Shown: positions 9,355-60,295 of the stretch, one piece after another
Layout: every line of letters begins with the position of its first letter
How positions within the stretch are numbered: the first letter of the stretch is position 1
Assembly: GCA_011109175.1 (NCBI GenBank)
Contig: RDEW01000005.1
Location: 541,523-605,522 of the forward strand
Reading direction: 5' to 3'
DNA length: 64,000 nt
Origin: Dicyema japonicum
Taxonomy: Eukaryota > Dicyemida > Rhombozoa > Dicyemidae
Made by a program: the position numbers and the translations under genes
The notes under the pieces: model-generated
What the model was told of the DNA's origin: nothing
Database searches by the model: none
What the model saw: only the letters and a program-made list of their open reading frames with translations

Positions 9355-10300
9355 AGAATTCTTGTTGCATATTTTAGAACTTTATAGATCAGGCATGTCA
9401 ACTATAATCATTTTTTCCGCATTTTTCAGACGTTTAAGAGCCACGTCAACCAAAAAGTGCTTTTTTATAATGATTAATTTCTCACAAATTTTCATTGTCT
9501 TAACGGCTTACATCAGAGAGAATAGTAATAGATTTTTGCTCACGCTTGTGTTTTGTTATGAAGGTTGTCTATTTTACTCTGCTACAAAAACAAGAAATAG
9601 TAACCTATCTAAGTTATCAAATTTTGCCATCAAATTTGCTGAAGGAGAAACGAAATTTCATAAGAACGACGTCATTATTCAGACTAAAAAACTCATTGCC
9701 GGCTCAACTATTTTTTTCAAAACAAGTGGAATTTTATTGCGCAACACCTATCAGAGCATATACAGTGAGAGAAAAGTACTAGTTATCTATTCTAATATCA
9801 GTTATATTTTTAATTTAGTTGATCTACGACACTATTCAAATTTCAATAAAAATTTTTGCTGGCTTTTGGTTGGATTCCTTTTCCAAATTTTGCTGGACCT
9901 CTAAAGAGTAAATCGGCTACGGAGGTGTCAAGTGCAATAAAGAGCACAATTTTTATGTTTAGAATACCAACCATTTTGGACACGGACAATGGCAAGGAAT
10001 TTTTAAATGAAAAAATGTTCGAGTTATGCTCAACATATGGTATAAAACAAGTCAGGGGACGTCCTTGGGTGCAGAGACAAGTCGAGCGTCTGAATCAGAC
10101 ATTGAAATTTATGATTTCTTCAACCTGCTTTTCAAAGAATTTGAATTTCAAATGGATAGACATCATTGAAGAAATTACAAGTTCCTATAATTTTGTCCAG
10201 CATTTGGTGATCGAGTTGTTAGAAGGGTCTATTTTGATAATAATAAAAAACACGAAAAAGTGGCTAAAACGAACACATTGATACATTCATATATCATGTT
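9355..10300 (+). pseudogene. Retroviral-type integrase relic (GIN/KRBA2-like)
   Basis: Two frames join across a shift at about 9860-9900. They give VDLRHYSNFNKNFCWLL, PLKSKSATEVSSAIKS, then IPTILDTDNGKEFLNE and GRPWVQRQVERLNQTLK. These are the DDE integrase core features: the D-N-G-x-E-F block and the Q-G/R-x-VER-N-x-T-LK block containing the catalytic Glu position. Such integrases occur in Ty3-like retrotransposons and in GIN DNA transposons. No RT or LTR is visible here, so the class is open. Frame breaks make it non-functional. Confidence 0.75.
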
Positions 10301-10769: not shown

Positions 10770-12340
10770 GTATAATAGGAAGGGATCAGCTCCAAAAAAT
10801 TTAGGGTGTAGATCCGTGGAGTTTGATCCCTGATGACAAAAAGAAGGTGTCTGCCGATATATTTAAACACTCCGACGAGGAACTACCTATTGCTGATAGC
10901 ACTGTCAGCATCTTTGAAGTGATGACAGCTATCAGGGAATGCAAGGTCAATGCTCCAGGATATGACCACATATCAATGAACCTTATCAAAGAGGGTCCGG
11001 ATATTTTGTTTGACTATCTGCGATGTCTTTATGATGGGTGTTTACGACTTGGCCACTTGACTTTAATATGGAAGAAAGCTGTTGTGAGGATGATTCCAAA
11101 ACCAGGGAAGCCAAAGAGAGATCCGGCAAGCTACAGACCAATTAGCTTAATATGTTCTTTCGCGAAAGTGATTGAACGTATCATTTTCAAAAGGCTAAGC
11201 AGACATATAGAAGAAAACGACTTTCTGATTTCGGAGCAGTGGGGTTTTTGTCCCGGAAGTGGCTGTGCAGACTGTTTCTTTCTACTGAATTCTGAAATCA
11301 TAAAAGCAAAGGATTCCAAGAGACAAATAAACTTATTATGTCTCTAAAAGCATTCGACAGTGTATGAAGCGTTGTTAAAGCAGCTTGTATCAGCATGTGT
11401 TCCGAGATACCTATTTGTTTGGCTAAGAAATTATCTTCAGGAAAGACAATCTTTTGTGAAGGTGTGTGGATATATATCTGATGCAATATCATTCAAAAGA
11501 GGAGTACCTCAAGGTTCAGTATTGAGCCCTATTTTGTTTAATATATTTATGGAGAGTTTTCCACGTTCGAGGAATATTAATACTAGTCTTCTTATGCGGA
11601 TGACGAAATCGTGGTGAACACATCTCTAAAATCTTCTATATCTGAAGGAAGAATCCGGGAGTATGTTGACCAGATTGAGCATTGGTGCAATTTGAGAGAG
11701 CTAAATCTCTCTGCTGAAAAATCTTGCGCACTCTGAATAAGCAATGTGAAAAAGAATCTGAAACAAGAATACACACTGGGAGTAAACAATGCACTCAGTC
11801 TGCGCTACATGGGGGTCGACTAAGGACACGCAGGAGATTACATGGACGAATTAAAGGGGAGAAAAAAGAGAACTTTTCAGTCGCTCCTATGTACATGGAA
11901 GTTACACGTTAGCCGCGACACTTACCTGTTTATCTTCAAAGGAGTTATTTTTCCTAGTCTACTTTATGGGTGCGTGGGGTGGTTCTTCTTTCCGAAGAGG
12001 GAAAAGATCTTATCTCTCCTAGAGAAGACTAGAAGAGCTGCAATTAAGCTCTCCTTAAACAAGAAACTGTGAACGAGGACGAAAACAAGCTCTTAAAGCC
12101 GATTAGCAGGATTGTGGAAGATCGGATCAATGGTTTCAGGAGGAGATCAAAGGTCCAGGACACATATATAAAGGTGGGGGAATAAAGATTAAAAAGCTGG
12201 GAGAAACGTTCCGAAAAAGATTAATAATAAAAAAAAGAGGAAGGGTCCAGGTGTGGAGTCCAAGCCTTATGGTAGGACTCAGATGTAATACCCTCCAGAA
12301 ATCTCCTTAACTCTTTTGTCAATAAATCCTTGTTGTTGTT
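10770..12340 (+). pseudogene. LINE family D, copy 1 (reverse transcriptase)
   Basis: The frame 10823-11347 encodes RT fingers and palm: AVVRMIPKPGKPKRDPASYR, PISLICSFAKVIERI, LSRHIEENDFLISEQWGFCP. After a shift at about 11347 come VPQGSVLSPILFNIFM (11509-11556) and, in another frame, YADDEIV (YADD codons 11593-11604). A third frame continues the thumb with LFIFKGVIFPSLLYG (about 11930-12000). No endonuclease is attached and the copy starts inside the RT, so it is 5' truncated. The 3' end at about 12240-12345 has a TTG repeat. Three or more frame breaks make it inactive. Confidence 0.85.
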
Positions 12341-26300: not shown

Positions 26301-26830
26301 TCAAATGAGGAGAAAATCCTCCAGATTTACGTCAGCCAAACGATATTCAGTAATAATCCGGAAAAGGTTCCAGTTTGAGGATTTGTATATGTAGGTCGGC
26401 TTCTTCTTATCACAAAATACCTCTCTCCTGATCTTCAATAAAATAGGGATGTGGTCGCTTCTGGTATCGTATATGACGGACCAAGTTACTCTTGGAGAGA
26501 GGGTTGGAGAGCAGAGAGTGATGTCTGCGGATGTAGGTTGATCAGAATTCCTGAAAGGGATTCTTGTGTGTTTCGAGGGGTCATTAATGATCATCAGTTT
26601 TCCAGACTGCGAGAGTGGAAGTCTTCCTCTTGCATCGGCAGGCTGACTTGACAGCCAAAGGGGATGTTTGGCATTCATGTCTCTGCAGTTCAAGATATCC
26701 CCCATATTTTCCGAAGTAGATAAGTCAACCATTGAATACTTCTTAGGGCATGAGCCAGGAGGAGGTATATAGACGTTCACCAGTGGATTTTGTCGGCACA
26801 AGCAGATGTTCTCCCTTTGGTTCCTTCCTT
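26301..26830 (-). pseudogene. LINE family C, endonuclease fragment
   Basis: A 166-codon open frame (26801-26301) encodes the C-terminal half of an APE-type endonuclease: VNVYIPPPGSCPKKYSMVDL, NCRDMNAKHPLWLSSQ, TSADITLCSPTL, WSVIYDTRSDHIPILLKI. The last contains the S-D-H catalytic end. The GDF-N-HH block is degraded to CRDMNAKH. The region is homologous to 42490-42800 minus and 14790-14930 plus. Confidence 0.8.
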
Positions 26831-26834
26831 GGAT

Positions 26835-27480
26835 TAATTAGTTATGACTGTTTGTGTTGGGGTTACCATTGTAGACCTGAGGTTAATTAATAATAATGTT
26901 TCTCGACTGCATCCATCATTCGGCCCTCGATCACAGCATAATTTTCCGCGAGTGTCCATGGAAGACAACTTGCAATTTTTTATTGTATATGACGAAACAT
27001 CTATGAAGCTTTCAAATCATGAATATCCAATTTGTTAGCAATTTTAAGCGTCATTTCCTGAAGCACATCATTAGTACGAGTATGGTTGTATTTTCTTTCA
27101 TTTTGTATCCACTTATATAAAGGTGTGTAAAGTAGTGCTAGTTGTAATATTTTTTGAATTTTCCAATTTTTGCTGCAAATATTTTATTTCTTTATTTTTT
27201 TTAAACTAAAATTTATCGGTTCCAACAGGCATTTTAAATTTTCTGCTTAGAGAAGTCGAGCGATGACTGGAATTTCTTTTTGTACTAAATGAAAAATTCA
27301 TTAAATTTCAATTTTAGGAGGAAAATCATTAAAATTTGGATTCATTAAGTAAAATATTCATTAAATGAAAAATTCATTAAACAAAAAACAAATGTAATTT
27401 TTTTGTCGGCATACCATCCTTACCGCAAATAAAAATATTATCCACGCAAGCAAATTTTTGTCTTGCTCCTTTTGTCACAC
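26835..27480. other. AT-rich spacer, no gene seen
   Basis: Includes local direct repeats of ATTCATTAAA (27290-27400). A TTTTTG(C/T)CGGCATACCAT motif at 27403-27418 also occurs at 16803-16819, suggesting a shared but unidentified repeat. Confidence 0.4.
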
Positions 27481-33464: not shown

Positions 33465-33980
33465 ATGGGGTCCTCCTTTGATCAAACAAACTACAACTCC
33501 TCAGTCTTCCAATATAACGGATTCTGTGTTGTCTACATTTTCGTCATCATCCTCATACACTTTTTTTGTATAAGTATCCCTTTCTTTTCCTCTGCCTTCG
33601 CTTGGACTCTTACCAACATCATTCACAGTGTGGTTAACTTTCACCTAACTTATTTTTAGATAACTTTTTTCGCCTTTCATTACTTCGTTGGTAGTCCCTG
33701 GTTGTTTCCTCTTGACAACAACCGACCCTGCAAATCTGACTCAGTGGGAGCAGATAGACTATGGAGAACAGTTCACCTTTAGCAAGAAGTTCCTCCTGGT
33801 AACACCAATCGTTCTGTTGTGATTTTTGCTTATTCTAGGTTTTTACTGGCATCCTTCTACACGAAACATTCATTTTCATATTTTATAGTGAATGCAACCT
33901 TTATGCTTCTCGTGTTGATCCCAAAGTTCCCTCAAATGCACGGAGTGAGGATAAATTTTGATTCTCTTTTCGGGAAGTGA
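33465..33980 (+). CDS. ORMDL: ORMDL family protein (sphingolipid regulator of the ER)
   Basis: Exons 33465-33632, 33660-33815 and 33839-33980 with GT-AG introns of 27 and 23 nt. The joined protein follows ORMDL end to end: the [12 protein letters not shown] block at the first splice, [20 protein letters not shown], then [16 protein letters not shown] across the 23-nt intron and [13 protein letters not shown] near the C-terminus. Length is about 154 residues against about 153 in animals. Hydrophobic segments near residues 19-41 and towards the C-terminus fit the multi-pass ER protein that restrains serine palmitoyltransferase. One extra base between the SPW and LTQWEQ blocks (33693-33724) breaks the frame, so the copy is either a young pseudogene or carries an assembly indel. 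ATG 33465 lies just after a TAG in another frame and gives a normal-length N-terminus. Confidence 0.92.
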
Positions 33981-34782: not shown

Positions 34783-37240
34783 TTAATTAGCTAATCTCCT
34801 CTTCTTGGGGCCAACGTCAATTGTCAGTATAGGTGTGTTTTCGTTGTCGCACAACCCACATCCCGAGACTCCCCTAGGTCGACATTCCTTATCAGCTTCC
34901 TCCTCATCAGGTATCGATACTCCATGTCTATCTTCAGCTTGCATGCTCTCCAACGTCTTTCTCAATACTAACGTTTGGATGTACGCTTTCACCCTTTCCT
35001 CCAGTTTGAGGGCATCCAGATGGCCCTTGAAGAATCTCGAAACAATCCCATCCCAGGTAATGACTACAGGGATTATTTTTACCTTTGCGCGATGAATACA
35101 TCCGAGTTCGTTCGCCAGTAAGTCATACTTATGGAACTTTTCCACCTCGACTTGCTTGAGGCAGTTTTGGGACGTGATCCCAATTTCAACGAGAGTAATC
35201 GTATTACGCACCTTATCATGAACGAAAATATCGGGTTTGTTATTCTGTACAGCCGTATCTGTACTAATCGTTGTGTCTACACGAATCTCCACAAATTCAT
35301 TTGAGACAACAGATTGGACTGAGTGGGTCTTCAGTTTCTTAGTTTTTCTTATTCCATATTGACGGCAGAGGTGTAAGTGAATACATCTGACCACCTCGTT
35401 ATGCCGCCTGAGATACGAGCTATTCAGCATTCTCCCACATCTAGTTGCAAGGTGATCAACGGTCTTCTTTCCTGAGTTACAATGTTTGCACTTGGCTTCT
35501 CCATTATCAAAAAACATGTTACGATCCTGAAGCAGACACAGCCTTCCTTCGGTTACAGGAGAATGATTTCCATGAACTAACCACCCTGAGGATTCAGCAA
35601 TATTCACTTCGGTATCTTTCAGACACTCAAATAGAATAGAGTGCAGCGATTTCTCTTCAATTTTTCCCAGTAGATATTCATGTTGTATTTCCATCAATTT
35701 CAACATTGTCAAATCCTTCACATTTTCAATGTTGTACTTTCTTGAGATGAATTCTACGATAGTGGCCATGTGTATTTTCTTTGAATTAATGACCCGTAGA
35801 ATTCCCGCTCTTCTTAGGCAGTAATTTGCCTTATGTTCCAAATCACTATAAAATTGGAGGAGCATTCTTTCTGCTTTGTTACTGACTGACTCGAGGCCTC
35901 TTCCAAATTTATTTCTTGGTAGATAAAGTCTTTCTTTGTTTGCCGGTTGCAAGTGGATATGACTGTCCATAAGAATTCTGCGAATATTTTTATCAATCTG
36001 TTCAAACTCTCCAGGTTCGATATCAATCAATCCAATGTAATAGTTGTAAAGGGAGATTGCATACTCATTCATAGCTTTAAACAGGTTCACTGAGTTTAAA
36101 TCCGTCTTCGTCAAATTTTTGATCCGCTTAGATACTTCTCCATAGATTTTATTCATAATTTCTCCTTTAAGAACATTGCTGTTCTTATCTTCAAGAACTC
36201 CCAAATATCGGTATCCATCCAATCCATCAAGGAAACGAGCTTTCCCAGACAAGGACTTGACATTTGTTGCAGATTTGTCAAAGTTCCTCTCCAACCCGGC
36301 TGCATCAAAAAACGAATCAACTTCTTCCATCATCATAACCATTGAATCACTTTTGTGAGAAAACAACTTTATATCGTCCATAAACAGAAGGTGATTAGTG
36401 GCATATGTTGGCTCTCCATTTCCCGGGCTTCCCATAGTTACTTTAGGAAATTTTCCATTCAATATTCGGCTAAGGGGGTCCATTAACAAAGCAAAGATCT
36501 GTGGCGAAAGAGAGTCCCCCTGTAGAATTCCTCTTCTTATTCTAATCTCCCCCAACACTTTTCCTTCCAAATTCAGTCGTATCTTCCATTTCCCAACAAG
36601 TTTCGTGATAAAACTCACAATCCAGAAAGGCAGGCCAGAATTCTGGAGCACTTCGCCCAAAAACTCGTGGTCAACGGAATCAAATGCTTTTTTAACATCG
36701 ATCCAGGTAGAACATAAGTTACTTCCATTTCTTTGATTTAAATATTGGTTCACCAAAGCTTGTTCTTTGGCTCCTTGACACATCCTCCGAGTTCCCAATT
36801 GATTATCACTTAAGAGATCGTACGATTCAATATATTCAGATAATTTCTTGTTCACACACTTTGTCAATAGTTTATAGAGATTAGGCATACAAGTAATTGG
36901 TCTTAACTCCTTGGGTGAATTACATACGTCCACTTTTGGTATAAGATGTGTTATCCCCGTGTAGAACCAATCACCAGGCGTATATTCATCATTTATGATC
37001 TTCTGAATCTCCTCGCAAAGATGTTCATGAATCGAAGTAAAACTTTTGATAAAGAAGTTATAAACTCCGTCGCACCCAGACGCTTTCCAATTTGGAAGCA
37101 TCTTGATAGTATCGACGATCGCTTCCTTTGTAAAATCGGCATAAGAATTTTCAGATCCAGTCACTCTCTTGTTCAACAAGAATTTGCTCTCCTTTCGATC
37201 ACTCTCATTCCAAATGGTTGTCCAAAAAGGTAGACATTCC
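34783..37240 (-). mobile_element. R2-like LINE with intact RT/endonuclease frame
   Basis: One open frame of 798 codons (37179-34783). RT: catalytic Asp in DVKKAFDSVD (residue 161), GILQGDSLSPQIF (217-229) and FMDD (266-269, in place of YADD). A CCHC knuckle follows (C564, C567, H576, C581), then a restriction-like endonuclease with KPDIF (D650) and ITLVEIGI (E665), and a basic end PKKRRLAN. This order (RT, CCHC, PD-(D/E)xK nuclease) defines R2-like LINEs. Family members are usually longer with N-terminal zinc fingers. Here coding potential continues to about 37240 and stops at a palindrome, so the copy is 5' truncated. No rDNA is nearby. It is the only long LINE frame in the window without breaks and may be the youngest insertion. 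Confidence 0.93.
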
Positions 37241-37262
37241 CTTCATCGAATATTCAGTAAAA

Positions 37263-37833: not shown

Positions 37834-38960
37834 GCCTTTTGACAGGAAAGTTTTTGGCGTTTTTGATGAGTTTTTCGACATCCGACGTACTGATTTCAAT
37901 CGATTTTCCTTGAGGAATTTGAACGTTTTCAATTTGCATGGACGAGAGCATTTGTTCATGTCTATGTGACTCACTTTTGCATAGTGGTCCATTATGACAT
38001 TTGCCTGATGATTGAAATCACGTGGTGTTTGATTTTTGTCAATACTGGTGGCGTGGGTTGTCTCCATTCTAGTCTCGAAAAGTTCATGTGTGTATCGAAA
38101 GTCAGACCCAATATTTTTGCCATTTGCTAAACGGCAATTCTCTTCCCTCCGCAGTAACTTCTATTGTCCTGTTTGACAATCTTTTGTCTAAGGAGAGTTG
38201 TAACAGATTTTTCGGTATTGATTTTCATTAAACCAATAGTCGTGTTGTATTCTTTCCGTCGCTGTTTGGGTGTTCTGATCCCGTGAGGCTAAGACGATAT
38301 CGTCTGTATAAGCCAGAAGCAGGTCGTCTTCTCCATTCGGCGTCGGAATGTCAGCTGTAAATAGGTTCAATATGAATGGTGATAGCGGCGAACCCTGGGG
38401 TACTCCATTTGGGAATAAACGGGAGACAGAGTGAATGTTTCCAATGCACACTCTACCTCTTCGTCCGCTAAGGAAGTTTGTCAGCCAGCGTTTGAGGGTT
38501 TCAGGGATATCTGATTGGTGGATTTTCCATGTTAGATTCTTCCTCGGCACAGAGTCGAAAGCTTTGTGGACGTCTAGTGAGCATAACACAGTTTTCTGGT
38601 GTCTTGGCTTGTACAGAAATCCAGAGCGAATAAAGTTAGTCAGGGATTTGAGGAAGCTTGTTGTGGACCGATCCTTTTGAAACCATGCTGAAATAATTTA
38701 TCGAGAGTCCTTTCAGTGATTTTTGCGAGGATAAGTTTTTCAAGAATTTTTGACATGGAGCATAAGAGAGAAATAGGCCTGAAGGAAGCTGGGTCTTCTT
38801 TCGGTTTTCCTGGCTTCAATACTGGGCGAATGTTTGCAAGTTTCCATATAGTTGGGATTGAATTATAATTAATCGAACAGTTGTAAATTTTGGTCAGGGT
38901 ACCGATTCCCTCATTGCCTAGGTTTTCAGGAGGATTATGGAATTCCGTGTGGACCACGAG
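37831..38960 (-). pseudogene. LINE family C RT, minus strand
   Basis: From 5' to 3' on the minus strand: RT fingers (38957-38640; ANIRPVLKPGKPKEDPASFR, PISLLCSMSKILEKL), a shift, palm (38589-38188; LCSLDVHKAFDSVPRK, GRRGRVCIGN, GVPQGSPLSPFILNLFTADI, YTDDIVLASRDQNTQTATE, with YTDD in place of YADD). The 38067-37831 frame (NHQANVIMDHYAKVSHIDMN) is pre-RT sequence that lies 3' of the palm, so the order is rearranged. The C-terminal part is missing. Confidence 0.85.
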
Positions 38961-52544: not shown

Positions 52545-55510
52545 ATTAAAGCACTTTCACGAAAGCCATAATGATTATAGCCCCGCATGTGCAACACTCG
52601 AAGAAACAATATTTATAGTTAGTCTTTTCCATCTACCTCTGTCGAATGCGAGTGATCTCAATTCGTCCAGGTCTTCTCCCGTCTTTAGATTTTTTCTCAC
52701 ACGATTTAAGTCTTTGTTTAGGGCTGTCGGAAGTGTCGATCTAGGTCGTCCGCGGAAGGGTTTTTCGCATCTGTCAAAGTAATCTTCCATCGCTTTGTTA
52801 GCGGGTGCGTCCGGGTTCATTCTTAGTACATGCCCAAATAGCCTCCACCGGGCATCTATCACATCCTTGCTGATGTAAGAACACATACACTTGTTGTAGA
52901 TATCAGTGGTTGATATTCTACGTGCCCACTCCATTCCGAGTAAGCTTCTTAGTTGCCTTCTATGGAACGAATCCAGTTTTATAGTTCTTTGAAGGAACTT
53001 CCACATGTCCCAGCGTTATACAGTAGGATCGGTTTCACAAACGCGTTGTAAAGCCTGCATCTGATGTCAACTTCAAGTCCTTTGGCCCTTAGCCATCCTT
53101 TCTTCAGTTTAGCCATTGCCGCATTTGCCAATGTTTTCCTCCTTAGTACATCTTCAGCGTCTCCTAGTATAGAGCCGAGCTTATTAGTACGTCTCCATCT
53201 TTCATGAGTAATATCGTCTTCTCTTTTGATTTCCGTAATTTCAGTTTTGTTAACATTTACGCTGAGAAACCATTTCTCAAGCTCCGCAGGTGCATTTTCT
53301 AGCAGGTGTTGGAGTGCGGTCACATCCCGTGATACAAAATCCACATCATCCGCATAAGATGTCTCTTCTATGTCTCCTATATAGCATTTACGGAGGTCGC
53401 GGAGTGCAGATTCAAGGTATATGGTGAATAGTAAAGGGGAGAGGGAATCACCCTGGGGTGTCCCAATCGTTGTTTTGAAACTGCGGGAAGTTGCTCCTTC
53501 TGTCCTCACAGATAGTCTTGTGTTCGCAAGTAGTAGTCTGATTATCCTAACCGACGATTCATCCAATATTTGCTCAAGCACATTCATCAGTTTCTGTCTG
53601 TTTATTGAGTCGAAAGCTCTGGAGAGATCTATTCCCAACACGGTTGTTGCGCTCTTGAATCTTTGGTGCGTTGCGCAGCGCCATCTGTGGCTCCATACAA
53701 TGTCTGCCGTAGACCTCCCTTCTCGGAACCCACTTTGACTTGCTGGTAGGTATAGATTCGCCATACCCTTTATCCGGCTTAGTGCAATGTTTGCCAGCAC
53801 CTTGCGTATCGAATTCAGAAGTATTATCGGGCGGAGATTTTCTACTGGTCCTTTTGATTTGTTCGGTTTTTGTATGGGTATTAATAATCCATTTCCAAGT
53901 CCTAGATCGGTATTAGTTTCAAAGACGTCATTTAGGGTTTTTGCAATTGTGTCGCTAAGTTTTTTTGGCCCATATTTTAGGAGCTCAGGGCTTATGTTGT
54001 CTGGCCCAGCACTCTTGTTGTTCTTCAGTTTATTTATCTCTAATTCCACCTCTTCCACTGTGATTGGGATTTTTAGCGCCTTTGCTTCTCCTGGGAAAAG
54101 GGGAAAGTCATTATTTTCTTTATTCAACAGTGTTTCGAAGTGTCGTGCAATCAATTCTGCTTTTTCTTTCGGGTTACCCACGAATTTTTTATCTTTGTCT
54201 TTGATATGAAGGATGTTTTGTCCTTTCTTTGTCCGCAGCAGCCGCAAAGCCGCATACATTCTTGAATTGTCTTTTAGGCATTCCACATCTTTTAATAGGG
54301 ATGTAATAATTTCCCGTGAGTGTTTTCAGTTCATCTTTTTGATTTTCCACTTTAGTTTCCTTTGTTGGATATTTAGCTCTTTTTTTTACTCTCGTCTGAC
54401 GTGTTTGCCGCTTTCAGTCGTAGCTCTCTGCAATGCTTTTCCATATTTGGCACGTTCGGGTGGTGATCCAATTTTAGGGCGTGATGATTTCGGACTCCAA
54501 GGCATATTTTGGCCGACTTGGAGATTGCCTGTTTTGTTTGATTCCACAGAGTTCGTACTGATGATTCCGGTGCGGTTTTCACCATAAGAGTCTCGATTTG
54601 TTCGTGATATTTAGCTTTACAAGTTGGCTCTAACCACAATTTTTCTGTCTGAAAGTATATATTGGATCTTGTCTCGCCTTCTTCGCGTTTTCAATGTATT
54701 TTCTCCCAGTCAGGTGCTTTTTTACACAAAGTTTTGCAATGACGATCCTGTGGTCGCTGTCGGTTGTTGTTCCCTGGTAGGAACATGCATCATTTATCAG
54801 GTGTTTATCAGACTTTCGGCAGATAATGTAGTCGATTACACAAAGTTTTGCAATGACGATCCTGTGGTCGCTGTCGGTTGTTGTTCCCTGGTAGGAACAT
54901 GCATCATTTATCAGGTGTTTATCAGACTTTCGGCAGATAATGTAGTCGATTTGATTATATATATTCACGGTCTCTCCGACAGAGTTTTTTCTTTGTCCGT
55001 GCCACGTCGTCTTATGGCAAGCTGAGTGCGTAAAGGCCGTGTTGCACAGGAAAAGGCTATTTGCCTCGCAGAAGTTTACCAGAGAGGCTCCAGATGCATT
55101 TCTCCTTCCGCGCCCGTGTCTTCCAATAGAGGATTCTTCGGGCCCCATTCGCATTCCGGCCTTTGCATTCATATCTCCCGCAACAAAGACAAGAGACGAG
55201 GAAGCATTGTTAGAGTATGTGCTTGATAGTTCTGAGTAGAATTCCTCGAGTTCACCGGGGTTCTTGATTACTCGTCCACAGTGTGGTGCATAGACATTTA
55301 TGACGGTTAGTAGACTCTTGGACGGGCATAGTTCATTTAGTTTGACTTGTAGGACACATATTCGGTCGTTGACTCTCCAATAGCGATGTAATTTTTTGAA
55401 GTAATCCACGTGTAGGGCAAATCCCATGCCTTAGTGCTTGCATTCAGTTGGGAAGAGAATCAGTCGGTAGTTGTTCCATGTCTCATCGCGTCCATTTAAC
55501 TCATCTGAGA
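52545..55510 (-). mobile_element. LINE family B, nearly complete, APE type
   Basis: On the minus strand: endonuclease (55500-54630) with YRLILFPTECKH, a stop, GMGFALHVDYFKKL, VNVYAPHCGRV, AGDMNAKAGMRMG and TDSDHRIVIAKL; a linker (54639-54373); and a 435-codon RT frame (54286-52979) with GPVENLRPIILLNSIRKVLA, LGIDLSRAFDSINRQKLMNV, IGTPQGDSLSPLLF and YADDVDFVSRDV (intact YADD). A shift then leads to the 143-codon C-terminus (53006-52575; ARWRLFGHVLRMNPDAPANK, FRGRPRSTLPTALNKDL). The 3' end is GGCTTTCGTGAAAGTGC, (TAA)n. The endonuclease start (N-V-R-G, Q-E-T-K) is missing and its S-D-H end is duplicated (54724-54951). It is the best-preserved APE-type RT here, with few breaks. Confidence 0.92.
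54724..54951. repeat. Perfect 114-bp tandem duplication within LINE B
   Basis: 54724-54837 is repeated exactly at 54838-54951. The unit is 38 codons, so the minus-strand endonuclease frame stays open and carries two copies of the DSDHRIVIAKL end. Confidence 0.9.
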
Positions 55511-58268: not shown

Positions 58269-60295
58269 TAATCACGGAAGGGGATATCGAAATTCTGGAA
58301 ATTTTATGATCGACTTTTGTAATACCTACGATTTGTTTCTGTGCAACACGGCATTTCAGCACGCCGCCCGACACAAGACCGCCTGGGTAGGTTGTAGAAC
58401 AACCAAAAATGGAGAGGAACAAAAAATATTCAATCAAATAGATTATATTTTGTGCAAGCAGTCGCACAAGAGATTATTAGTGGACTCCCGTTCGTATGGA
58501 GGATCATTGACAAATAACGATCATAAGATCGTAGTCTGTCGGTTGAATCTTAGCAGGCTTTATGGAATATTATATGCGAATCATTCACGTCCCAGAAAAA
58601 CACAGATGATAGCGGGAGAAGAATTAGTAAGTAATCCTGCACTCTTCACGAGATACCAGCAGCGAATAGACCAGTATCTATCCAATATTTTTATTGATGG
58701 CCTACCCCACATCGTGTGGAATAGAATCTCTGAAGCCATAATGACGGCTGCCGAAGAAACAGTTGGGATTTGCGAAAATACTATGAAAGGAAGATGTGTT
58801 TACGGATTCCGAGATTCGCGGAGCACGCCTGAATAACAACAGAGCTGCTGGCTATGACAATATTTGTGAAAAGTTGTTAAAATACGCACCAACTCAGCTA
58901 ACAGGAAAGATAACTTTTATATTCAACGAGATATTCAGGACTCATTGTTCAATTAAAACCGCGATGGAAGTTCTACTTCCTTTACAAAAACATAGCAAAA
59001 CTGCAGGTCCAATTGAAAATCTCAGGCCGATCGTGCTTCTGACTACTTTGCGAAATACATTGTCGATTACAACATTGAATATCAAATTCAGTTGAGCAAT
59101 ACTTGTCACCAAGTCAAAGCGGATTCAGACTAGGAAGATTGAAATAGCATGGAGTCATCGGTGGCTTACGGAAATATGTCAGAAGTACAGAAAAACAATG
59201 TATATTCTGGGAGTCGACTTATCGAAAGCATTCGACTTTGTCTGCCGAGATAAACTACTGCAAGTTCTCAAGGACATAATTGATAAGGACTGTTTGAGGA
59301 TTGTGTGTTTTTTTCTGACTGATACGAGCCTCATAGTTAAAGTGGGGAAGGGCTATTCTGAAAAATTCACGACCGTGATTGGTACTCCGCAAGGGGACTC
59401 GCTTTCGCCAGTTCTTTTTGCAATCTATTTGGAAGCTGCGTTGAGGGACGTTAGAAAAGAATTGGGTCACTTAAATAATCATTTTGTGGAATTAATATAT
59501 GCTGATGACATCGATTTTGTGTCTGAGGATGTGGAGGTACTAAGAACTGCAGTAGATAAAGCCACAACAGTTCTGGAGAGGTGGTCTTTGAAGATCAATT
59601 CAGAAAAAAACAGAGTTTACTTCGATTCAGCGGTTATCGACACGGATTGATGAAAAATGGAGGTCTACTAAAATGCTCGTTTTTGGGTGATGCTGAGGGC
59701 ATTGCTCGTAGAAAAATGTAGGCATCGTGTGCACTGAAAAAGATGTGGAGTAATTGGACTTGCAGAAAACTTATCTCCTTAAATCTTCGGATGCGCTTAT
59801 ATAACGCGTTCAAACAACCAGTCCTATTATATAACTCGGGAACTTCAAAAACTGACCTTGACAGATTAGACACATTTTATAGAAATCAATTGAGAAAAAT
59901 TGCGGAAATCAAATGGCCACAGATTATCAAAAACGACACTCTCTACAAATTATGTAAATGCAAACCGATAACAGAGAAGTAATTACCTCACGCTGGCGAC
60001 TTTTCGGGCATGTTCTGAGAATGGACGAAGTGATTCCTTGCAATCAAATCATGGAAGATTACTATTCAAATCACGGAATTGGATTTCGGGGTCGGCCAAG
60101 ATGTACGCTTCCCCTCTGCCTGAATAACGATTACGCACGAATTGGCGTTCAACTCAAAACTGGAGACGATCTTGAACGCGCGAGAAACAGAGTAGATGGA
60201 GAAGGCTGACTGAAGGATAGTCGAGTGTACGGCACGAGCGAACCCCTAGGCATTTTACGTGCTTATGGCAACGAGGAAGTGCTATTAACTAACTA
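58265..60295 (+). pseudogene. LINE family A/B, main part
   Basis: Endonuclease end: HGRGYRNSGNFMIDFCNTYD, LFLCNTAFQHAARHKTAWVG, TNNDHKIVVCRL (58280-58550; catalytic D-H kept). Linker to 58836. RT: AGPIENLRPIVLLTTLRNTL (about 59010), LGVDLSKAFDFVCRDKLLQV (59207-59266), IGTPQGDSLSPVLF (about 59378) and LIYADDIDFVSEDV (about 59490; intact YADD). C-terminus: RLYNAFKQPVLLYNSGTSKT, SRWRLFGHVLRMDEVIPCNQ, FRGRPRCTLPLCLNNDYARI to 60209. Several one-base shifts separate the pieces. The 3' end GCAACGAGGAAGTGCTATTA is followed by two TAAC units. Together with 57055-57292 this was one element. Confidence 0.88.

Follow-up and report, generated by a model that had tools for sequence, protein, structure and literature searches.

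Here we report an ORMDL gene on the forward strand of a 64,000-nt stretch of DNA (the window), and two ultrashort introns that appear to divide it, together with a survey of introns, frame breaks and splicing components elsewhere in the source genome, which comprises 64.67 Mb in 191 contigs. The gene lies at positions 33465-33980 and consists of three exons. Exon 1 (33465-33632), delimited by translation, spliced alignment and the Pfam match of the joined protein, provides 56 codons from an ATG that alignment indicates as the start, and encodes the N-terminal part of the PF04061 domain. It is followed by intron 1 (33633-33659; GTTAACTTTCACCTAACTTATTTTTAG), a 27-nt segment in phase 0 with a CTAAC motif inside, and by exon 2 (33660-33815, 156 nt), which was placed by translation and spliced alignment and whose frame is broken in the assembly. 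Intron 2 (33816-33838; GTTGTGATTTTTGCTTATTCTAG) has 23 nt and phase 2, and exon 3 (33839-33980), supported by translation and alignment, ends with the TGA codon at 33978-33980.

ORMDL is a housekeeping gene, and the proteins of its family reside in the ER membrane, where they bind and restrain serine palmitoyltransferase. With the frame break masked for profile and structure matching, the joined protein scores 148.7 bits with the PF04061 profile (cut-off 27) over its whole length (positions 1-135 of 135), and matches ORM1-like protein 3 among the solved structures with an E value of 1.8e-38; the family members listed in these structure matches run from ORM1/ORM2 (yeast) to ORM1-like protein 3 (human). 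We found 64 ORMDL relatives, with identities of 32-53%. The full-length PF04061 match is shared with ORMDL1-3 and Orm1-2, from which the present copy differs in being frame-broken in this assembly and in having a function that is predicted from its family. The whole domain is recognized by its profile and the assembled reading frame is not intact; since the break in exon 2 is probably an assembly indel, as discussed below, the family assignment is retained for the gene, not for the frame as assembled. A search of the genome for the PF04061 family returned two overlapping matches, both at 33465-33980, and no second copy or haplotype; a DNA search of the genome likewise revealed no further copy. 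Neither search recovered an intron-less ORMDL paralogue, which the initial annotation had raised as a counterexample to a split gene.

Several fragments of retrotransposons surround the gene. Pfam searches identified reverse transcriptase domains at 34786-37242, 38191-38697 and 52982-54325 on the minus strand and at 59096-59647 on the plus strand, as well as endonuclease domains at 26304-26837 and 54633-55430, both on the minus strand; matches below the cut-off to a reverse transcriptase (10805-11344) and an integrase core (9850-10278) were found on the plus strand. The first 10 long open reading frames of the window gave two matches, both to retrotransposon domains, and eight without any match, and nine more gave six retrotransposon or integrase matches (two of them under the cut-off) and three without a match. 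No other host gene was found among these 19 reading frames scanned against Pfam, a result that may miss genes made of short reading frames. Rfam searches of the window yielded nothing over the gathering scores, and ARAGORN detected no tRNA in it.

The borders of both introns can be read from homology. We aligned 12 of the 64 ORMDL relatives to the locus with a custom-written, frame-shift-tolerant spliced protein-to-DNA aligner, which placed intron 2 at 33816-33838 in all 12 alignments. Intron 1 was placed at 33633-33659 (27 nt) with seven references and at 33630-33659 (30 nt) with the other five. Donor 33628 combined with acceptor 33659 was rejected, as the start of exon 2 then falls in the wrong frame. 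The two segments begin with GT and end with AG at exon joins that homology fixes, and each contains a stop in frame, the terminal TAG in 33633-33659 and a TGA in 33816-33838, just as had been noted at first reading. In a comparison with one reference, none of 300 shufflings of the letters of both introns reached the alignment score of the real sequence (368.5, against a shuffled mean of 323.5, a standard deviation of 14.6 and a maximum of 363.0). Judged by homology, both ORMDL introns are real, and they are presumably spliced out in the living cell.

In order to place these lengths in a genomic context, we collected introns from four conserved gene families by spliced alignment. The resulting pool contains 70 introns from 14 gene copies, namely 27 from Prp8, five from each of two aldolase genes, 31 from ten actin copies and two from ORMDL. 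Their lengths range from 20 to 29 nt, with a median of 24 and a mean of 24.2, and their mean GC content is 21%, under settings that permitted intron lengths of 15 to 200, 300 or 400 nt. All 70 are of the GT...AG type, the aligner having demanded AG and penalized GC donors. Acceptors are mostly TAG (53 of 70), and donors begin with GTT in 36, GTA in 28 and GTG in four cases; because GTG donors are this rare, the 27-nt form of intron 1 is favored, and the 30-nt form with its donor at 33630 is a possible variant. Two near-copies of other actin loci (L052 and L054, resembling L051 and L053) and two diverged actin relatives, L060 with one intron of 78 nt and L061 with eight of 21-46 nt, were left out of the pool. 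Loci L048 and L049 were retained despite nearly alike introns, so that the 70 introns are not all independent. The introns of Prp8 measure 20-26 nt and include the shortest of the pool, a GT-AG intron of 20 nt on the minus strand (C87:1219669, L026), which is flanked by sequence in close alignment with two Prp8 references and has a length that is not a multiple of three. We searched the 70 introns for a shared branch-point motif and found none at a fixed place; YTRAY occurs in 24 of them at scattered distances.

The narrow range of about 25 nt that characterizes dicyemid ultrashort introns therefore recurs from gene to gene, and the ORMDL introns are of ordinary size for the genes sampled in this genome. 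The initial proposal that two ultrashort spliceosomal introns split an ORMDL gene is well backed by homology and by 68 more introns in the 13 other gene copies, all of 20-29 nt. The same evidence bears on the suspicion that the joins are fortuitous, the segments being noise in a decayed stretch full of repeats. The several retrotransposon fragments of the window would fit such a setting, but the failure of all shuffles to reach the real score and the recurrence of the same intron type in Prp8, actins and aldolases speak so strongly against chance that its probability is negligible.

Removal of both introns does not yield an open frame. The residues beside each join match ORMDL without a gap in four references, as the initial annotation had stated, but the continuity claimed there after removal of the two introns does not hold: exon 2 changes frame internally, at a break within 33702-33744 that the annotation had missed. 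A 12-residue stretch ending at 33701 and an 11-residue stretch beginning with WEQ at 33745 lie in different frames, with a net offset of +1 nt, and a single frame shift within this interval was required in all 12 spliced alignments. With both introns removed, the unshifted frame still stops at the TAG codon at 33780-33782, and the gene as assembled and spliced as described encodes no full protein.

Another mode of splicing could in principle mend the frame, either through a 67-nt intron (33628-33694) that replaces the 27-nt intron 1 or through a 58-nt GT-AG intron (33687-33744) within exon 2. Both begin with GT, end with AG and preserve the frame downstream. In alignments that disallowed frame shifts, the 67-nt intron came out best with ten of the 12 references and the 58-nt form, in which the 27-nt segment is retained, with one; the remaining reference favored a 28-nt form at 33730. 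The 67-nt and 58-nt forms, however, lose the G-S/T-P-W/F/Y residues common to the four relatives aligned, far exceed the 20-29 nt of the pooled introns, and have a GC content of 33% and 50%, respectively, against the pooled mean of 21%; moreover, forms without a frame shift score 17 to 64 units below the frame-shift form, which itself pays 22. On the grounds of lost residues, length, GC content and score we rejected alternative splicing as the remedy for exon 2 and consider it very unlikely; no GT-AG intron was found that cures the break without loss of conserved residues.

Breaks of this kind are found in other genes as well. A census of the 14 gene copies called 11 breaks in 6314 codons, distributed over eight copies that include ORMDL and the single Prp8 gene, a total that may be ten, given that one of the Prp8 breaks is doubtful: conservation is poor around it, and reference-free splicing placed a 23-nt intron there instead. 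Ten of these breaks were called in the 13 copies other than ORMDL, two of them in Prp8, and the copies affected besides ORMDL are five of the ten actins, one of the two aldolases and Prp8 (contigs C115, C111, C45, C159, C112 and C87; loci L048-L050, L059, L055, L063 and L026-L027). As far as a count by eye can tell, four of the ten sit within homopolymers of four or five letters. Because further breaks are called in other conserved genes, an assembly indel becomes the likelier cause of the break in exon 2, and, judging from the assembled sequence alone, we regard it as the most likely one. It seems that residual indels persist in the assembly or that several actins are pseudogenes, and the actin copies with breaks could indeed be real pseudogenes. 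Single Ns were present in four of 20 U2 loci read, two of the four overlapping, and may point to a scaffolded draft assembly, although withheld stretches are likewise displayed as N.

Whether the ORMDL locus itself is a pseudogene, with relics of introns and a true mutation in exon 2, has to be weighed against this background. The break is present in the assembly, and there is no other ORMDL copy found in the genome to cover for it. On the other hand, the coding sequence is well conserved outside the break and has no further stop, the locus is the sole copy found of a family listed from ORM1/ORM2 to ORM1-like protein 3, and comparable breaks in Prp8, one aldolase and five of ten actins seem to characterize the assembly and not this gene in particular. 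We therefore hold a decayed ORMDL gene to be unlikely. A bolder idea, to which we give only a slim chance, is that the animal itself copes with the breaks called in ORMDL, Prp8, several actins and one aldolase, which would then be no sequencing errors: it might tolerate them or decode them, be it through frameshifting on the ribosome or through an additional, unrecognized step of RNA processing. If true, such breaks would occur in a lineage that already splices introns of 20-29 nt. For annotators of the present assembly, the frame break in ORMDL serves as a warning.

The genome also encodes the parts of a splicing machinery. Among the best candidates scored, there were at least 25 matches to U2 snRNA, 22 of them over the cut-off, and at least ten to U6, nine over the cut-off, as well as at least 11 to U1, all of which remain under the Rfam cut-off (69.0 to 45.7 versus 69.5). 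The sequence ACTTAC lies close to the 5' end in all six U1 matches read, and the GTAGTA stretch that pairs with the branch site is kept in the two U2 copies inspected. Prp8 is present as a single-copy core splicing gene, SF1 is present, and a candidate for U2AF65 (C114:219969-221071) is recognized by piecewise matches, each below the whole-protein cut-off. The U1, U2 and U6 RNAs and Prp8 that go with U2-type introns can thus all be found, U1 with sub-cut-off scores. Given these components, together with SF1 and the U2AF65 candidate, the ultrashort introns are most likely removed by an ordinary major spliceosome.

Dicyemids are tiny worm-like parasites that live in the kidneys of octopus and squid, and Ogino et al. 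2010 is reportedly cited for the ultrashort introns of Dicyema. The lineage of the present genome was approached through aldolase. With a query joined by eye, the best match among 7999 scored candidates was the aldolase of Dicyema acuticephalum (A4PCF1; 528 bits, 73% identity); the next match reached 433 bits, and the other 119 among the matches listed showed at most 62% identity. In spliced alignments with A4PCF1, the two aldolase genes are identical to it at 271 of 360 and at 259 of 359 residues and have five introns of 23-27 nt each; the D. acuticephalum protein is devoid of segments corresponding to these introns, which bears indirectly on their removal from mRNA. On the evidence of this one gene, with the intron size as a further indication, the genome looks like a dicyemid's, though probably not that of D. 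acuticephalum. The GC content of the window is 31-42% in 2-kb bins; for the published genome of D. japonicum, PMC6736024 gives 67.5 Mb in 377 scaffolds with 4.1% gaps and a GC content of 36.7%.

Ultrashort introns of dicyemids are already known and have been in print since 2007, and the ORMDL gene is a further example. The literature describes 16 introns of dicyemids that average 26.2 +/- 1.9 nt (PMC2222250, 2007), a median of 27 bp in Dicyema sp. with about two thirds of introns below 30 bp (PMC6543705, 2019), and a mean of 38.2 bp in D. japonicum (PMC6736024). The introns described here resemble the published ones of Dicyema in their lineage, as judged by aldolase, in their GT-AG ends and in a narrow range of about 25 nt, and differ from them in being slightly shorter, with a median of 24 and a minimum of 20 nt versus the mean of 26.2 (n=16) or the median of 27 bp, and in the genes concerned, which here include ORMDL. 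The mean given for D. japonicum exceeds that of our sample of four conserved families, a difference to be expected where some introns are long. PMC2222250 draws a comparison with the introns of Paramecium (20-35 nt) and of the Bigelowiella nucleomorph (18-21 nt), which are similar to the present ones in size and uniformity but belong to unrelated lineages, where shortening was convergent. The initial annotation had placed 23 nt close to the lower limit known for a eukaryote; the length itself stands, but for this organism it is no surprise, considering the dicyemid introns of about 26 nt (PMC2222250 and PMC6543705). Still shorter introns are the 18-21 nt quoted for the Bigelowiella nucleomorph in PMC2222250 and the 20-nt intron placed in the Prp8 gene of the present genome.

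Taken together, these observations make it very probable that the ORMDL gene of the window, the only copy recovered, belongs to a dicyemid genome and is split, like the other genes sampled, by ultrashort U2-type introns that are removed by an ordinary major spliceosome, and that the break in exon 2 is an assembly indel. We propose that ancestral introns most likely shrank to the usual length of the lineage, about 24 nt. During splicing, U1 would act at the donor, SF1, U2AF and U2 would assemble at the acceptor end, and U6 and Prp8 would operate in the core. The predicted product, from what is known of the family, would be an ER membrane protein restraining serine palmitoyltransferase. With ORMDL, a documented dicyemid trait extends to a further gene and proves recognizable from raw sequence, and an intron of 20 nt is found in the animal's own Prp8. 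Dicyemids could serve as an animal system for understanding how U1, U2 and U2AF fit on 20-24 nt without a fixed branch-point motif.

Two further observations concern repeated loci of this genome. Matches to U2 snRNA are numerous genome-wide (for example, loci L003-L022) and range from full length to shorter, with six of them on contig C115. Among the actins, the loci C137:1183609-1184823 and C137:1197299-1198513 have a common stretch of 1280 bases with 100% identity, and the loci C94:965106-966273 and C94:1001667-1002834 are inverted relative to one another and show 98.6% identity across 4406 bases, with 13 gap openings; these pairs represent either recent duplications or uncollapsed haplotypes.
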